Part shown: piece by piece, positions 2,737 through 51,712 of the stretch
How positions within the stretch are numbered: position 1 is the first letter of the stretch
Layout: each line of letters begins with the position of its first letter
IMG/VR virus record: IMGVR_UViG_3300025009_000114
Span: 1 to 59,414 of that record
Strand: one strand, 5' to 3'
DNA: 59,414 bases
Source: a virus
Made by a program: the position numbers and the translations under genes
Notes under the pieces: model-generated
The model's database searches: none
What the model was told of the DNA's origin: nothing
The model's input: only the letters and a program-made list of their open reading frames with translations

Positions 2737-2907
2737 ATGCAAGTAATCACCATTAAGAAATCTGACAGAGCTAAAAGAGCAAATGAGAGAAGACAAAAGG
2801 ATCTTTGCTTGTCGTTAGTAGAGTCTCGGATAGCTGAAAGGAATAAAAAAGCATCTTTCAGGAAAGAGTTTTACAGGGTAGGTTGTATCAACTACAGTCT
2901 TGCTTAA
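2737..2907 (+). CDS. Small basic hypothetical protein
   Basis: A 56-residue, strongly basic protein starting MQVITIKKSD with many Arg/Lys and a C-terminal YRVGCINYSLA. AAAAAGGAAAGAAC directly precedes the ATG and is an excellent Shine-Dalgarno. Its charge suggests nucleic-acid contact. No family recognised. Confidence 0.55.
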   Translation: MQVITIKKSDRAKRANERRQKDLCLSLVESRIAERNKKASFRKEFYRVGCINYSLA

Positions 2908-2988
2908 TCGGTTCAAAGAACAATTACAAATTGTAAAGTTGTTTTTCAACTTTTTGAGCATACAAAGTATGCGAATGGGGTTTTACAA

Positions 2989-3183
2989 ATGAGTGAAAGC
3001 AAAAGTAGTCCTTCCGGTGGTGCTAGTTTCTGTAGTCTTCTTACTGTCTTATTTATAGGATTAAAGCTAACAGGGTACATTACGTGGTCTTGGTGGTGGG
3101 TATTGTCTCCGTTGTGGATTTCTTTTATTATATTAATTTTAGTTATCATTGCGGTAGGTATTTTAACCAATTGGAGGTTTTAA
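2989..3183 (+). CDS. Small inner-membrane protein, Tmemb_185A-like
   Basis: 64 residues with two hydrophobic segments. The central LTGYITWSWWWVLSPLW matches the short proteins named transmembrane Fragile-X-F that are widespread in phages and bacteria. The membrane location is clear from the sequence; the function is unknown. The start lies 9 bases after a GGGG-containing ribosome site. Confidence 0.7.
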   Translation: MSESKSSPSGGASFCSLLTVLFIGLKLTGYITWSWWWVLSPLWISFIILILVIIAVGILTNWRF

Positions 3184-3184
3184 C

Positions 3185-3331
3185 ATGCAAAAAGCAATAG
3201 TAATAGGAACCCTGATAGCCGAAAAGAAAATCCCTTCCTACAAGATCCCCTGTAAGGTTCCTTTCGGATCTATCCTTCGAAAGGCTCTTAGCTCTAAACA
3301 GATTCCAGTTAATCGTGCTGGAAGGTCATAA
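3185..3331 (+). CDS. Small hypothetical protein
   Basis: A 48-residue basic protein starting MQKAIVIGTL. TTGGAGGTTTTAAC gives a strong Shine-Dalgarno immediately before the ATG, and the gene starts two bases after the membrane-protein stop, so the two are probably coupled. No recognised family. A structured RNA follows directly. Confidence 0.5.
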   Translation: MQKAIVIGTLIAEKKIPSYKIPCKVPFGSILRKALSSKQIPVNRAGRS

Positions 3332-3333
3332 GA

Positions 3334-3441
3334 CCAGGAAGCCACCTATTAGCCTCTGTAAGTAACAATCAGACTAAAAGGTTCTACCCTACGTGGTAGG
3401 TGCTGATCGTTGCTTACAGGTCAAATTAGACCCCTTCCTGG
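3334..3441 (+). ncRNA. Multi-helix structured RNA element 1
   Basis: Three nested helices can be drawn: CCAGGAAG (3334-3341) with CTTCCTGG (3434-3441); CTGTAAG/AAC/ATCAG (3356-3372) with CTGAT/GTT/CTTACAG (3403-3419); and CTACC with GGTAG (3384-3399). The 3' strand of the outer helix abuts the GGAGG ribosome site of the gene at 3454, so pairing could hide it. The 3' flank TTAGACCCCTTC recurs in the element at 4662. This is either a cis-regulator or a small RNA. Confidence 0.5.
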
Positions 3442-3453
3442 AGGTATTTTAAT

Positions 3454-3552
3454 ATGCCAATAAGTGAGCGAATAAACTTTGTAGTAATGTTGGTTGTATT
3501 TATAGGCATTCTTCTTTGTGCTACTTGCACTGAAGAGGGTGAAGAAAGTTAA
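3454..3552 (+). CDS. Tiny single-span membrane protein
   Basis: 32 residues: a short polar start, a hydrophobic segment VVMLVVFIGILLC, then a short acidic tail TEEGEES. TGGAGGTATTTTAAT precedes the ATG. The size and topology fit tiny phage membrane proteins, but I cannot assign a role. Translation may be controlled by the upstream RNA structure. Confidence 0.5.
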   Translation: MPISERINFVVMLVVFIGILLCATCTEEGEES

Positions 3553-3654
3553 CTTCTATCGGAGCCTGTTAGATAACTAACAGGTTCTAATAGGTGTTAA
3601 GTTTCAAATGAAAGTGAAAAGGACTAAAAGCGAAACCTAATAGGAGGAAAAACA

Positions 3655-19417: not shown

Positions 19418-21070
19418 TTGACAAAACGTTTTAACAACTGTCGGGTTTTAGTTCTTTCAGATACTCACGCTCCATATCATCACAAGGGTACTCTTGACTT
19501 TCTATCTGCTGTTAATGCAGAGTACAACCCTGATAGGGTTGTCCACGCGGGCGATTGCGGAGATATATACTCGATTTCCGAGTACCCTAAAGATTTGGAA
19601 CATAGAGATACATGGAGTGATGAGATAAAAGGTCTTAGGAAGTTTGTAAAAGAACTTGGATCTTTATTTCCAAGGGTAGATCTTCTTGAGAGTAATCATG
19701 ATTGCTTTGACAGAGAGACAGAAATATTAACAAGGTCGGGTTTTATTCCTTTTGAATCTCTAGAAGATGGTGTGGAGGTAGGTACACTTAATTTATCTAC
19801 TAATGAAATTGAGTATCAGTTTCCAACAAAAGTTACTAGAGACTTTTATAGTGGAGATATGGTTAGGATTAACGGAGCCACTTCTATTGATCTACTAGTA
19901 ACCCCAAACCACAGGTTGTATGCATCCAGGCAAACCAGAGGACACTTTAGGATGCAAACAGCAGAGGAGCTATTGAACAGCAAGTGCAATAAGCTTTTCA
20001 CAAAAGATGCAGGTGTAAATAACAAACCAGAGTACGATATAGATGACGAAACTCTAAAGTTAGTTGGTTGGTATTTAACAGATGCTTCTTTCAGAGGAAA
20101 TACTATTGTGTTCCTACAGAGGAAATCTAACTACAAAAAGATAACAGATCTTTTAGATTGTAAAGGGATTCCCTATAAGCTGTACGAAAAAGATTCCTCA
20201 AGGATTACACATATTTGTGGTAAGGAATTAAAGAAAGTCCCCGAAAACCAAATGGTAATTTCTATCAAGGCTAGTGAACTTAACCATCTAGTTCCTAACA
20301 GATACAAGTTACCAGATTGGTTGTACAATCTTTCTAAGAGACAAGTAGATATTCTACTTAGTGTTCTTATAGATGCTGATGGATCTACTTACACTCAAAA
20401 CAGGAAGGCTCTTGTATTGTACGGGACGTATGATTTTGTTGATCAGGTTCAAAGACTTCTTCTCCACTCTGGATATAGAGCAACTATAAGATGTTATAGA
20501 GGTAAGGATTGGAAGTTAAACATCACAGAAAGAGTAGAATCTTGCTCTTATAAGTTCAAGAATCATATCAATACTCAAGAGTATACAGGACCAATCTATT
20601 GTGCAACCGTACCAAATGACACTCTTATTGTAAGGAGAAATGGAAAAATATCTATCACTGGAAACTCAAGACCGTATAGAAAGTCTGTAGTGGCTGGCAT
20701 TCCAAGAGAGTTTCTAGTCAAGTACCTAGATGTGATAGGTGCTCCACCAGACTGGAAGATACACTCTTCTCTGAACATTACAGTAGATGCTGACAGATCT
20801 AATTGGACAATGGTCCATAGTTTTGGGGGGAGCAATGCTCTAAATGTAGCGAAGCACAAAGCCACTAACATAATTATGGGCCACCACCATAGTCGAAGTG
20901 GAATAGCATCCTTCAACAATGGAAAAAAAGTGGTGCACGGAATAGATACTGGTTGTCTTATCTCAGACTCTGGTTCTCCATATCGCTACAATCGTCTTGA
21001 TATTGGAAGACCTATTAGATCTGTTGTGATGATCATAGAGGGTGTACCACAGATTATACCTATGAGGTAA
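19418..21070 (+). CDS. Metallophosphoesterase interrupted by an intein
   Basis: A 550-residue precursor from TTG (GGGGAGG upstream). Extein residues 1-95 and 417-550 form a calcineurin-like phosphoesterase: LVLSDTHAP (DxH), HAGDCGD (GD), ESNHD (NHD), and after the intein IIMGHHHSRSG (GHxH). The intein inserts directly after the NHD motif, inside the active site, so the enzyme should work only after splicing. The mature extein would be 229 residues. Substrate unknown; such phage enzymes may act on phosphodiesters or 5' ends. Confidence 0.85.
   Translation: MTKRFNNCRVLVLSDTHAPYHHKGTLDFLSAVNAEYNPDRVVHAGDCGDIYSISEYPKDLEHRDTWSDEIKGLRKFVKELGSLFPRVDLLESNHDCFDRETEILTRSGFIPFESLEDGVEVGTLNLSTNEIEYQFPTKVTRDFYSGDMVRINGATSIDLLVTPNHRLYASRQTRGHFRMQTAEELLNSKCNKLFTKDAGVNNKPEYDIDDETLKLVGWYLTDASFRGNTIVFLQRKSNYKKITDLLDCKGIPYKLYEKDSSRITHICGKELKKVPENQMVISIKASELNHLVPNRYKLPDWLYNLSKRQVDILLSVLIDADGSTYTQNRKALVLYGTYDFVDQVQRLLLHSGYRATIRCYRGKDWKLNITERVESCSYKFKNHINTQEYTGPIYCATVPNDTLIVRRNGKISITGNSRPYRKSVVAGIPREFLVKYLDVIGAPPDWKIHSSLNITVDADRSNWTMVHSFGGSNALNVAKHKATNIIMGHHHSRSGIASFNNGKKVVHGIDTGCLISDSGSPYRYNRLDIGRPIRSVVMIIEGVPQIIPMR
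19703..20665 (+). mobile_element. Intein with LAGLIDADG homing endonuclease
   Basis: 321 residues from Cys1 (CFDRETEILTRSGF, block A) to GN followed by extein Ser. Block B-like DLLVTPNHRLYAS, endonuclease motifs LVGWYLTDASF and LLSVLIDADGS, and C-terminal VPNDTLIVRRNGKISITGN are all visible. Two oddities: the penultimate residue is Gly instead of the usual His, and the first endonuclease motif is less canonical than the second. Cys1, the terminal Asn and the +1 Ser needed for splicing are present. Confidence 0.9.
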
Positions 21071-26345: not shown

Positions 26346-29180
26346 GCGTAGAGGAACAATTATCGAACTATATTTATCTCAGCAAGTATAGCCGTTGGAG
26401 AGAGACACTAAAAAGAAGAGAGTGTTGGGAAGAAACTGTAGATAGATATATTACGTTCTTCCAGGGACATTTAGGACTCGCAGAAGTTGATGAAATCTTA
26501 GAGGAACTGCGAGGAGCTATCCTGAACAAAGAGGTAGCACCCTCAATGCGGTCTTTGATGGTAGCTGGTAAGGCTCTTGAAAGGGACCACGCAGCTTCTT
26601 ACAATTGTGCAGCTATTGCTATCACACACCCACGATGCTTCGATGAGATTTTCTATTTACTTATGTGTGGTTAGTACAACAGCCTCACAATAAAAACCAT
26701 GTTAATTGCTGGAAACTCCTAACGTAGAGTCGAGGACAATCAGCAGCCAAGACGGATGAAGCCGTAAGGTTCAACGACTAGATATACACAATAAAATTAT
26801 AGGGGTACATTATGCACCGGCCTAGTTATAGTAGAACACCAAAAGAAATAAGGGGAGCTTTGGTTGGAACATTGCTTGGAGATTCTTTTATCTCCAAGGG
26901 GAGAACCTTCTGTTGCGAACAGAAGTCTCTCAATCTTGTTAAGCTAAAAGCTGAGTTGATATCTCATTACACTAGAAATTACCCGAAGATAACTTACAGA
27001 GAACCTAGAGATTCTTTTATAGGGGGTAAGGTTATAAGAGGAAGTGGGACATTCACTGTTCAGGGAGATCACGATACTTTTAAAAAGTGGTCGAAGATTT
27101 TTTACATGTTCGGTGAAAGGCAAATAAGAATGTCTTTGCTTCGGCAACTTTCAGATGAGGGTCTTGCCTTGTGGATCATGGATGATGGTTTTATGTATTA
27201 CACAAAATCAAACTCCACCAGAAGACTAATACTCTGTACAGATGCTTATAGTGAACTTTCCCATAAACTCATGGTAAATTATTTTCAAGAGTATTATAGT
27301 GTTTCTCCAAAAATAATAAAGCATAAATCGAGAAAAGATGCTAAAGAGAAGTTGAGATTAGCTTTCAATGCAACAGACACTCAAAAAATAATAAGCATTG
27401 TGTACCCTTATGTGCTTGATGAGTATTTGTACAAAATCGATATGCATTATTCAGACAAAAGTCTTAATTCTCAAAGGTGTTCAGATGCTTATAAAGAAGC
27501 ATATGAGTGTATATCACAACGCATGGCAGCTAGTACTAACTAGTTGAAGATATAGTCTAGTCCTTATAGAAATATAAGGTATCCACGTGTGGAGTAGGAT
27601 TCTCAGTAGAAAGACAGTACATCGCAAAACTCCCTGTAGTTGCTGAGAATTTTTATGAAACTGATACAACTCTCAAAGTGCAAGATTCAAAGATTGGTTG
27701 GGCCAAAGCCCTTAAGGAACTTATTGCACTCCTGTATAATGGCGATATTCCTAAGTGGGATCTTTCATCTGTTAGACCTGCTGGTGCTCGACTTAAAACT
27801 TTCTCAGGCAGAGCCTCTGGGCCTCAGCCCCTCGACTCTCTTCTTGATTATGTGGTTCGCCTTTTTCGTCGCGCTGCGGGTAGAAGACTCACTTCAATAG
27901 AAGTCCATGATACACTTTGCAAGATAGCTGATACCGTCATAGTAGGTTCTGTCAGAAGAAGTGCGATGATCTCCTTGTCGAACCTTACTGACTTGCGTAT
28001 GGCATCTGCTAAATCAGGTTCCTGGTGGGATAAGAACCCTGAGAGGTCTTTAGCTAACAACTCAGTTGCCTATACCGAGAAGCCTGACCTTGATAGTTTC
28101 CTCAGAGAGTTTAATAGTCTCTATCAAAGTAAGGCAGGAGAGAGGGGCATATGTAATAAAGTAGCTCTTAGAAAGAAAGCTGAGAGTTGTGGAAGAGAGT
28201 ATGATGGGGATTACCTACCCAACCCCTGTTTCGAGGCTTTGCTCAGAGACTCTGGTGGTTTCTGCAACTTAAGTGAAGTTATAATAAGACCAACAGACAC
28301 CCTAGAAGATCTCAAGAAGAAGGTAGAGTATGCAACTATCATAGGTACTCTACAATCCACCCTGACAGATTTTAGATATCTAAGAAAGATCTGGAAGGAC
28401 AATGCAGAAGAGGAGAGACTATTGGGGGTGTCACTCACAGGGATTATGGATCATCCTGTAATGAGTGGTAAAACTGTTTGGAAGAACCTAGCAAACAAGA
28501 ATACGCACTCTTATTATAATCTTTCTGAGATCCTAACAGAACTCAAGCAAGTAGCCGCAGAGACGAACAAAAAGTGGGCTGAGATCCTTGACATTCCAGT
28601 ATCAAAGCAAACAACATTAATAAAACCATCAGGAACAGTAAGCCAACTCTGCAACACGTCTAGTGGTATTCATCCAAGGTTCTTCCCGTTCTATCTTCGT
28701 AGGGTAACTCAAGATCGTAAAGACCCCCTGACAGATCTCTTGATATCACAAGGAGTTCCTTATGTTCTGAGAGGAGAGAAAGCAGTGTTCTCCTTCCCAA
28801 TCAAGAGCCCAGAGGGTGCTATCTGCGCTAGAGATATAGGTTCTATTAGCCAACTAGAACTCTGGAAGACATATCGCGATTATTGGTGTGATGGCAATCC
28901 AAGTCAAACCATTTACTACACTGACGATTCTTTCTTAGATGTACAATCTTGGGTCTGGAAGAATTGGGATTCTATCGGGGGTTTGTCTTTCTTCCCGCTT
29001 GATGATACAATCTATGATAAAGAAGCCCAACCTTACTTGGAGATAACTAAAGAGGAATATGAGAAGTATCTATCTGAATTTCCTGAGATTAATTGGAGTA
29101 TACTTTCAGACTTCGAGAAAGAGGACACCACACAGATGCAAACAGAGTATGCCTGCTCTGGGGGGAAGTGTGAACTTTAG
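26342..29180 (+). CDS. nrdJ: Class II (B12-dependent) ribonucleotide reductase, split by a group I intron
   Basis: Exon 1 is 26342-26671 (TTG start after AGGAGGAGAG) and exon 2 is 27588-29180; joined they encode 640 residues. The junction reads FYLLMCG-CGVGFSVERQ, the conserved class II loop. Other landmarks: RLKTFSGRASGPQPLDSL, NPCFEALL (active-site Cys), TTLIKPSGTVSQL and a C-terminal CSGGKCEL redox pair. The monomeric RTPR-like layout suggests it reduces ribonucleotides to deoxyribonucleotides with adenosylcobalamin and no separate small subunit. It supplies DNA precursors to the replication genes. Confidence 0.88.
26672..27587 (+). mobile_element. Group I intron in the ribonucleotide reductase gene
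   Basis: 916 nt. Conserved core: P AATTGCTGGAAACTCC (26704), Q AATCAGCAGCC (26738), R GTTCAACGACTAGA (26769), S AAGATATAGTC (27547), with P7 from GACTA/TAGTC. A P9 hairpin CCTTATA-GAAA-TATAAGG ends at 27579. P1 pairs exon GTGTGGT with intron GCCTCAC with the usual U-G at the splice site, and the intron ends in G at 27587. The endonuclease gene lies between R and S, in the P8 region. Confidence 0.93.
26812..27543 (+). CDS. LAGLIDADG homing endonuclease (intron-encoded)
   Basis: 243 residues. Motif 1 RGALVGTLLGDSFI and motif 2 EGLALWIMDDGFM carry the catalytic acidic residues in both copies, and KKWSKIFYMFG-type helices fit the family. ATAGGGGTACATT precedes the ATG. The stop lies three bases before the S element, so the gene avoids the ribozyme core. 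It would cut intron-less reductase alleles and drive homing. Confidence 0.88.
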   Translation: MHRPSYSRTPKEIRGALVGTLLGDSFISKGRTFCCEQKSLNLVKLKAELISHYTRNYPKITYREPRDSFIGGKVIRGSGTFTVQGDHDTFKKWSKIFYMFGERQIRMSLLRQLSDEGLALWIMDDGFMYYTKSNSTRRLILCTDAYSELSHKLMVNYFQEYYSVSPKIIKHKSRKDAKEKLRLAFNATDTQKIISIVYPYVLDEYLYKIDMHYSDKSLNSQRCSDAYKEAYECISQRMAASTN

Positions 29181-49612: not shown

Positions 49613-49653
49613 AAGTGCAAAGCACTGTTGAGCGAACGTTAGTGAGCGAATTA
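49613..49653. repeat. Post-stop CGCTCACTAACG...CTCAA plus hairpin, capsid copy
   Basis: On the minus strand the capsid TAA is followed directly by TTCGCTCACTAACGTTCGCTCAA and then the hairpin AGTGC-ttt-GCACT. The same block follows terL (55842-55882), with one base difference in the core. A shorter version follows the gene ending at 1788. Confidence 0.65.
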
Positions 49654-51712
49654 GCCAGCAATGATAACACTCTCTACAAGTGCTACTGGCTGAATTACTT
49701 CACGACCGTAGACCGAAAGTCCTCGCATATACTGACCGAAACTATCAGGAATCATTAAAGATTCGGTCTTGGTTAATTGCAGTGCGAAGGTAATAGCCTC
49801 TTTAGTTCCTGCAAGCGCATAAAACAACTCAGCAGTACCCTCAGTTGCATGATAGAGGTTATTAGTTTGAATGACCTTCATCCTGTCAATCATACCTACC
49901 ACTCCTGTTCGAAGAACACCAGTAGAATCCCCGGTAATATCAGCAGACTTAAGGTCACCTTTCTTCAGTCGAGCCACAGCCCAAGCTGGCAAAAGAACCC
50001 AACGATTCTCACTTGGGATATTTTGCTCATCAAGTACAACGTTCATATCAACAATAAGATCCGTTGCATTGTCAGAGGTAAGAGACACTGCATTAGATCC
50101 ATTAGAACCACCAGCAGCACCGAGTGCAATGTTAGACAGAACACCAGCGGTATTACCACGGTTGTTACTGTCAGCTTTGCCAACTACATAAGACAGTACA
50201 TCAGCATCAATAGCAATCTTCAGACGCTCACCAGCATCGGCAGCAAACTTATTCATCAGATCGAGATCAGTTTGAACTGCGTCAATGTCGTCGATTTTAA
50301 AAGACCAGCTCTTAGCTTCAGTGATGTTAAGGGTCTTGTTTGCTTTCTCAGGAACTTCGTAAGAAAGCGTACCACCGACAGTGTAATCGCTGATGGTGAT
50401 AGCAGGGATAGTACGGATAAGTACCTGATCTCCCTGACCTTTGCATAAATCTTAAAGATTTCGGACTATTACTTATCCTTTCGGATACTCTCTGTTTAGT
50501 CTCTGCTGCTTGCGTATATTATGTAATTCAAGTATATCTTGTATTAGTGAGTATTTCTTTTCGTGCATTATATAGGATCTTATTTTCTCCAGAAATGGCA
50601 CAGCAAATGAAGCGTCCCCATATCCAAGATTTCTTTCCCAATCGCACCAAGATCTTATAGAATAAATATTCCCCTTGAAGTCTCTTTTAAATAACTCTAA
50701 TAAATGCTTATCATCAGCACTCTGAGTAATTTTTAACCTCATTTCGTAGAAATCTTTATTCTCTCTTTTACTCAACTTTATACATCCATTTCCAGCTATA
50801 ACACCTGCAACATAAGACCAAGATAAGTGCTTTGGCATTTTTAACCATCTACTGTTTTTTCTTGAACACTGACAATAAGCCTTTAGTTCTTCGATAATAT
50901 TTTGTGAAATATCTTCAACATCTTTATGTTGATCTGATATCCATATCATATTATCAAGATGTGTAGCTTTTAATCTCATATGCTTTCCAATCCTGTTGAA
51001 AAGTATACGAGTTTCTTTGTCCCTCATAGTCCAAGTACAGGTAGAAGAGGTATTCTCACCGTCTTCTATTTTGTAGTACAAAGATCCAATATTATAAAAA
51101 TCTCTTAAGGATCTTATTACTTCAAAATCTTGATCGTTAGTTGCAGATTGTGTTAAACTTAATGTTACACTTACTCGTTGTTTTTCTGAAGTTCTAGTCT
51201 TGTAGAAGAATAGAGAAACACAACCATCAGTATCTACAAGACCTGCTAGATATTTGTTTAGTTGTTCTGAATGCACTCTGTTCTTTTTCAATTGACCGCT
51301 CAGAAGTTTATAAGCAAGTGTTGATGTGTTATACTTTGAAAAATACATAAGTAACTCCTGTGTTAATTTGGAGTCACACATTGCATCGAGTTTTACCTCG
51401 TTATTTAAGAGAGTTACGAGACCAAATTAGTTAATCTCGCCTTGATCAATGTGGACTATCATTTTATCTTTCGACTTTAGACCGTTTAGTCTCTGCGGGT
51501 GCTAAAAGCTTCCCTCGGATTTTACTCCGTTATTTAGGTCTAATTAAACTGATCATCAAGGTATTTTAATCAGTATTAGCGATCTCTCCAAATACAGTAG
51601 ACAGATAGAAGTTTTTTAACATCTTCGAGGACCATACAATAGGAGTAAATTTGCTAGTCCCATCAGATGCATAGTCTTTATATCCAGAGGTACGAGTTAC
51701 GCCATTAGCCAT
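49651..51712 (-). CDS. Major capsid protein, split by two group I introns
   Basis: Exons on the minus strand: 51712-51568 (145 nt), 51446-51434 (13 nt) and 50443-49651 (793 nt), joined 951 nt and 316 residues. AAGGAGAAGTAAAA precedes the ATG. The join reads GEIANTD-YQGEI-KGQGDQVLIRTIP, matching the NTDYEGEIK..GD segment typical of HK97-fold capsid proteins. Each intron is fixed by P1 and P10 pairing. Without splicing the frame stops right after NTD. The gene follows the scaffold and forms the shell. C-terminal region LKIAIDADVLSYV and GRE/VIQP agree with the family. Confidence 0.9.
50444..51433 (-). mobile_element. Group I intron 2 in the capsid gene, 990 nt
   Basis: P1: exon CGAGAT with intron GTCTCG (six pairs, U-G last). 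P10: intron TTTG with exon 3 CAAA, adjacent to the guide. P3: ACTCTC with GAGAGT. R GCAGAGACTAAAC (50506-50494), P8 TATCC-GAAA-GGATA, S AAGTAATAGTCC (50474-50463), P9 AAATC/GATTT, terminal G at 50444. The endonuclease gene sits in the P6 region and runs on into R, P3 and P8. P5 loop and R are nearly the same as in intron 1, so the two are related. Confidence 0.92.
50473..51348 (-). CDS. LAGLIDADG endonuclease in capsid intron 2
   Basis: 291 residues from the ATG at 51348 (CAGGAG 7 bases upstream; the frame is open to 51381). Motif 1 LNKYLAGLVDTDGCVS is canonical, while motif 2 SYVAGVIAGNGCIKL has Asn where the catalytic Asp is expected, so one active site may be lost (a nickase or maturase is possible). 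The last 15 codons overlap the ribozyme R, P3 and P8 segments. Confidence 0.85.
   Translation of the reverse strand: MYFSKYNTSTLAYKLLSGQLKKNRVHSEQLNKYLAGLVDTDGCVSLFFYKTRTSEKQRVSVTLSLTQSATNDQDFEVIRSLRDFYNIGSLYYKIEDGENTSSTCTWTMRDKETRILFNRIGKHMRLKATHLDNMIWISDQHKDVEDISQNIIEELKAYCQCSRKNSRWLKMPKHLSWSYVAGVIAGNGCIKLSKRENKDFYEMRLKITQSADDKHLLELFKRDFKGNIYSIRSWCDWERNLGYGDASFAVPFLEKIRSYIMHEKKYSLIQDILELHNIRKQQRLNREYPKG
51447..51567 (-). mobile_element. Group I intron 1 in the capsid gene, only 121 nt
   Basis: P1: exon CTGATT with intron GATCAG (U-G at the splice site). P10: intron CCTTGAT with exon 2 ATCAAGG, 7 perfect pairs, directly next to the P1 guide. P3: TTAGACC (51543-51537) with GGTCTAA (51483-51477). 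P5 CGGA/TCCG, P6 GGG/CCC, R GCAGAGACTAAAC, S ATGATAGTCC with P7 GACTA/TAGTC, a tiny P8 with GAAA loop, terminal G at 51447. No open frame. I recall group I introns as usually above about 200 nt, so this is unusually small. Confidence 0.85.

Follow-up and report, generated by a model that had tools for sequence, protein, structure and literature searches.

In phages of the Twort type, a single gene reportedly houses several group I introns, as a title cited in PMC11878797 indicates. The group I intron in a tail gene of mycobacteriophage BAKA measures 265 bp (PMC3706429), the Jug phage introns average ~206 nt (PMC12363816), and fungal introns of 56–81 nt have been described, a 67-nt one of them being reported as active in vitro (PMC3160393); these fungal mini-introns keep only P1, P7 and P10 together with a middle/3'-exon pairing (PMC3160393). 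The locus presented here belongs to a podovirus, the major capsid gene of which is interrupted by an insertion of 121 nt at 51567..51447 (minus strand) of the window, i.e. of the whole stretch of 59,414 nt that was analysed. Judging from its sequence, the insertion is very probably a natural minimal group I intron that would be removed by the two-step guanosine pathway.

The capsid gene, its exons and its introns

The capsid gene starts at 51712 on the minus strand and meets an in-frame stop directly after ...IANTD, at the start of the insertion. Once 51567..51447 (121 nt, intron 1) and 51433..50444 (990 nt, the LAGLIDADG-bearing intron 2) are taken out, the invariant capsid stretch EIANTDYQGEIKGQGD is regained, the resulting 316-aa protein containing EIANTDYQGEIKGQGDQV and matching phrog_267 (major head protein) with E 5.5e-54. 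The parts of the gene are as follows:

51568..51712, minus: major capsid exon 1 (MANGV...GEIANTD plus the T of the Tyr codon), from the phrog_267 match and the intact relatives L004–L007
51447..51567, minus: intron 1, HEG-less group I, 121 nt, starting with AAAATACC and ending with CCACATTG (...CATTG, terminal G being G51447), from the left-out covariance model
51434..51446, minus: micro-exon ATCAAGGCGAGAT of 13 nt, separating intron 1 from intron 2, its frame giving ANTDYQGEIKGQGD as in L004, L005 and L007
50444..51433, minus: intron 2, 990-nt group I of the same family, P1 GAGAT/GTCTC, P10 CAAA/TTTG, ending ...TTTATG, with the LAGLIDADG gene in the P6 loop
50473..51381, minus: ORF of the LAGLIDADG homing endonuclease/maturase type in intron 2 (Pfam LAGLIDADG_1, E 2.1e-12)
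49651..50443, minus: major capsid exon 3, from protein homology

Among the aligned capsid homologues, the motif E-I-A-N-x-D-Y-x-G-E-I-K (EIAN(T/V)DYxGEIK) is invariant, and in those from L004, L005, L006 and L007 the stretch is uninterrupted, without introns at these two sites. Since the intron-less homologues keep the capsid stretch, the intron boundaries are supported by protein homology, beyond RNA folding. The bounds of intron 1 (51447–51567, 121 nt) are exactly those given by an earlier sequence-only reading, which had also called for a comparison with phages devoid of the introns, now available in the empty sites of L004–L007. A DNA search against phage records gave no match, and tblastn retrieved distant capsid proteins only.

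Concerning intron 2, the alternative boundaries ...AAC|TAAT / CAAAG|GTCAG were dropped in favour of GAGAT|TAAC / TTTATG|CAAAGG, because with the latter the conserved Lys is regained, the terminal G is kept and P10 is formed. Its LAGLIDADG protein has VAGVIAGNG as the second motif, with N in the position occupied by D in the aligned relatives; because it is the catalytic D that is replaced, cleavage by the protein may be impaired though the frame is kept, and it may be a nickase, a maturase only, or a decaying enzyme. As for the micro-exon, 12 of its 13 nt pair: the first seven (nt 1–7) engage the P10 strand of intron 1, the last five (nt 9–13) the guide that forms P1 in intron 2. An exon on which P10 of intron 1 and P1 of intron 2 both draw offers a clean system for studying splicing order and the co-homing of a passenger intron.

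Elsewhere in the window, a metallophosphoesterase ORF (19418..21070, plus strand) has internal Hint_2 and LAGLIDADG_3 matches and is probably interrupted by an intein. At 26812..29180 (plus strand), a LAGLIDADG_2 endonuclease ORF immediately precedes a ribonucleotide reductase ORF whose family match begins only at position 188 of 701, and this gene, too, may be interrupted.

Fold, covariation and relatives of intron 1

The elements of intron 1 and of its flanking exons are the following:

51568..51574, minus: P1 5' exon strand (7 bp, ACTGATT/GATCAGT, from guide pairing), its last U (51568) pairing with G 51554 at the splice site
51548..51561, minus: guide CCTTGATGATCAGT, P10 strand at 51561..51555 and P1 strand at 51554..51548, from the 14/14 pairing
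51537..51543, minus: P3 5' strand TTAGACC (7 bp), partner at 51483..51477, with four double compensatory changes relative to L009
51516..51529, minus: P4 hairpin CGGA-GUAAAA-UCCG (4 bp), the hexaloop standing in place of J4/5 and P5, from the alignment and the Rfam consensus
51497..51514, minus: P6/P6a GGG-AA-GCU-UUU-AGC-A-CCC (3+3 bp), 18 nt, the HEG position in family members, from the core alignment
51487..51493, minus: P7 5' strand G-A-GACUA, A 51492 bulged and G 51493 pairing with C 51453
51477..51483, minus: P3 3' strand GGTCTAA, from the core alignment
51466..51475, minus: P8 GUC-GAAA-GAU, 3 bp, from the core alignment
51453..51458, minus: P7 3' strand UAGUCC
51440..51446, minus: P10 3' exon strand ATCAAGG (7 bp, CCTTGAT/ATCAAGG), from guide pairing

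The guide is the reverse complement of the junction ACTGATT^ATCAAGG except for the G opposite the splice-site U, and all its 14 positions pair with the spliced junction, as they do with no other place in the window; when the first 44 nt of the intron were shuffled, pairing of this extent arose once in 200,000 shuffles. The helices P3, P4, P6 with P6a, and P8 keep the group I order, and P7—5 bp (GACTA/TAGTC) plus a G-C across the bulged A—is the G-binding helix that makes the pseudoknot with P3. Unconstrained MFE folding of the 121 nt yields P3, P4, P6, P6a and P8. The linker between P1 and P3 has four nt (UUAA), leaving no P2, and the P7 strand UAGUC is followed by seven nt, CACAUUG, the last one being the terminal G, which leaves no P9; there is no ORF. 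The sequence-only reading had thus correctly recognised P1, P10, P3, P6, P7, P8 with its GAAA loop and the terminal G, as well as the lack of P2, of a P9 extension and of an open frame. The helix that it had taken for P5 (CGGA/UCCG) is, however, P4, since it immediately precedes P6 on the 5' side and its alignment to the Rfam consensus places it on the P/Q elements. In that consensus, as aligned to L031, P4 runs via an A-rich J4/5 into P5, both usual in group I introns; in the phage family they are absent and P4 is capped by GUAAAA, the adenosines of which would take over from J4/5 the role of keeping the U.G pair of P1 in place. The description of the ribozyme as apparently complete holds at the level of the core helices. 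The absence of P5 is treated here as a structural variant, not an exclusion from group I, the remaining core topology being intact.

Intron 1 is structurally a group I intron lacking one usual element, and it is not recognised by Rfam: RF00028 gave no group I match in the window at the gathering or relaxed thresholds, even at E 10, while the positive control, a classical group I intron (L031 1465..1694), scored 60.5 bits. It should be pointed out that an RF00028 match is a detection aid and not a defining group I trait. Annotation based on Rfam thus misses a covarying phage intron family, so that metagenomic capsid genes can look broken though they are probably spliced.

Fifteen HEG-trimmed cores of the family align nearly gap-free. 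On the pseudoknotted structure, 96.8% of their cells are paired and 17 of the 23 pairs show double changes, with a covariation score of 0.714 versus at most 0.105 when the partners are slid (0/500 shuffles). P3 covaries at all its pairs, P4 and P6 show double changes and P8 covaries. Because the structure had partly been drawn from these sequences, the covariance model was rebuilt without either intron-1 ortholog; it gave 85 bits (E 2.2e-17) for intron 1 of the window and 84 bits for the ortholog from L009, the E-values of such short-calibrated models being rough.

This ortholog (L009, IMG/VR) occupies the same capsid site, is 118 nt long (L009 1229..1346) and is likewise followed by a 13-nt micro-exon and intron 2. 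An intron at this site is thus present in only two independent phages, the window and L009, since L009–L012 represent essentially one phage. The exons 3 of the two share ~75% DNA identity, the exon differences being mostly at the third codon position (25/19/53 over 270 nt), and eight of the 14 core differences between the small introns are accounted for by four compensated P3 pairs. The boundaries, helices, covariation, orthology and empty sites are evident at the sequence level. That intron 1 derives from intron 2, as suggested earlier, is not borne out: the similarity of its unpaired core columns is 98% to the L009 site-A intron and 84% to intron 2, albeit in a comparison that is weak, the core being short.

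The same core, its P6 loop housing a LAGLIDADG gene, occurs at many capsid-gene sites, and most family members have the HEG; besides intron 2 of the window, these relatives come from IMG/VR L002, L003, L014, L019, L021, L022, L031, L032 and L042. The other HEG-less members are of ~135 nt (L029), 152 nt (L014), 170 nt (L009 site A) and ~190 nt (L121), the 3' ends in L029 and at site A of L009 being approximate, as the codon frame and the terminal G disagree. L002 has a HEG at the site where the L009 intron is without one, which is consistent with HEG loss. The full covariance model, run on 564 kb of sequence surrounding 74 further capsid loci, matched HEG-bearing members only, in L042 and in L041, the latter sharing its contig with L019; because the scan added just these, the P5-less family appears restricted to few phages. 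In viral_contigs, a strict DNA pattern for the R-P3'-P8-S block had no match, and core DNA patterns had none in GTDB genomes.

Several of these capsid genes are rich in introns. L009 has a further classical-looking group I intron at 2882..3626 (RF00028, 42.4 bits, E 1.3e-7), which brings its capsid gene to a total of four; the capsid gene of L031 (300..3500) combines two LAGLIDADG introns of the P5-less family with one classical Rfam group I intron; and the capsid genes of L014 and L121 have at least three introns each, HEG-bearing ones mixed with HEG-less ones.

Splicing, persistence and alternative explanations

In the proposed pathway, an exogenous G would dock in P7 and attack after U 51568, which the guide strand holds in P1; the freed exon 1 would then attack after G 51447, with the micro-exon aligned by P10. 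We infer that intron 1 is spliced in vivo. Its persistence is probably due to splicing making the insertion harmless, and also to intron 1 being carried along when intron 2 homes, since co-conversion around the target would copy intron 1, located 13 nt away.

Catalysis by intron 1 alone may be weak, because P5, P2 and P9 are missing and P8 has 3 bp. That the RNA of 118–121 nt self-splices free of protein, with the GUAAAA loop on P4 replacing J4/5 and P5, is a tentative proposal; if true, we know of no smaller natural group I ribozyme in which the P3-P4-P6-P7-P8 core is full, and a P5-less intron family specific to capsid genes would have it as founder. A case coming close to an even chance can be made for a degenerate group I intron, which would follow group I splicing in vivo but could not fold alone, needing the LAGLIDADG protein of intron 2 as a maturase, or else an RNA chaperone from the host; such an intron would still be a sub-case of the minimal group I intron and not exclusive of it. 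All six HEG-less members detected (window, L009 twice, L014, L029 and L121) lie beside a LAGLIDADG-bearing sibling in the same capsid gene, an arrangement that fits help in trans but is equally explained by co-homing. The missing P5, P9 and P2 also point to dependence, as do the shortened lichen introns, which require factors and did not self-splice when tested (PMC8527467), and the LAGLIDADG protein of the window, which has lost one catalytic Asp while its frame is still open. On the other hand, the core helices and the guide are conserved and covary, which argues for a catalytic fold under selection.

The sequences stem from metagenomic contigs, and one might suspect an assembly error, or a capsid gene in decay with a dead insertion; either is very improbable in view of the same-site ortholog with compensatory changes in another phage and of the exon differences falling mostly at third codon positions. 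Least credible is translational bypassing of the T4 gene 60 type, without any splicing, since—even though the insertion begins with GAT TAA and finishes with GAT CAA, so that the GAT ahead of the stop TAA and the one ahead of CAA could serve for take-off and landing—it was rejected for giving ANTD-QGEI, with deletion of the Tyr invariant in all homologues seen, where splicing gives ANTDYQGEI, and it leaves the P3/P4/P6/P7/P8 covariation and P10 unexplained.

Comparison with known group I introns

Taken as a minimal group I intron, intron 1 resembles the classical phage introns (RF00028) in the P1 U.G pair, P10, the P3/P7 pseudoknot, P4, P6, P8, the terminal G and the location in a structural gene. 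It differs from them in being about half their size, in the lack of P5, P2 and P9, in a P4 of only 4 bp with its GUAAAA loop and in falling below Rfam detection. A literature search, poor in that it returned mostly p53 papers, did not turn up any account of a group I family without P5, so that a precedent may exist.

With the 67-nt PaSSU intron and its relatives from Phialophora and lichen fungi (PMC3160393), intron 1 shares the extreme size reduction and P1, P7 and P10; those introns, however, are located in rRNA and lack P3–P6 and P8, and PaSSU ends in U. A degenerate mini-intron of the PaSSU type was therefore rejected as an identity for intron 1, which possesses P3, P4, P6 and P8 and ends in G. 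Its size is no record, because the 67-nt fungal intron with in vitro activity has been published, albeit with most of the core absent. The earlier statement that intron 1 is among the smallest is consequently true only if restricted to introns with a full core, in view of the fungal ones of 56–81 nt (PMC3160393). A natural RNA of a length accessible to synthesis nevertheless makes the lower size limit of a core-keeping group I ribozyme directly testable.

Among the closest systems are also the LAGLIDADG-bearing capsid introns, having the same core, the P5-less P4 hairpin and the same R and S elements; they differ in housing the endonuclease gene in the P6 loop, where intron 1 has its 18-nt P6/P6a. 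As in the Twort-type phages, several introns share one gene, but here the exon between two of them measures only 13 nt, 12 of which are engaged in P10 and P1.
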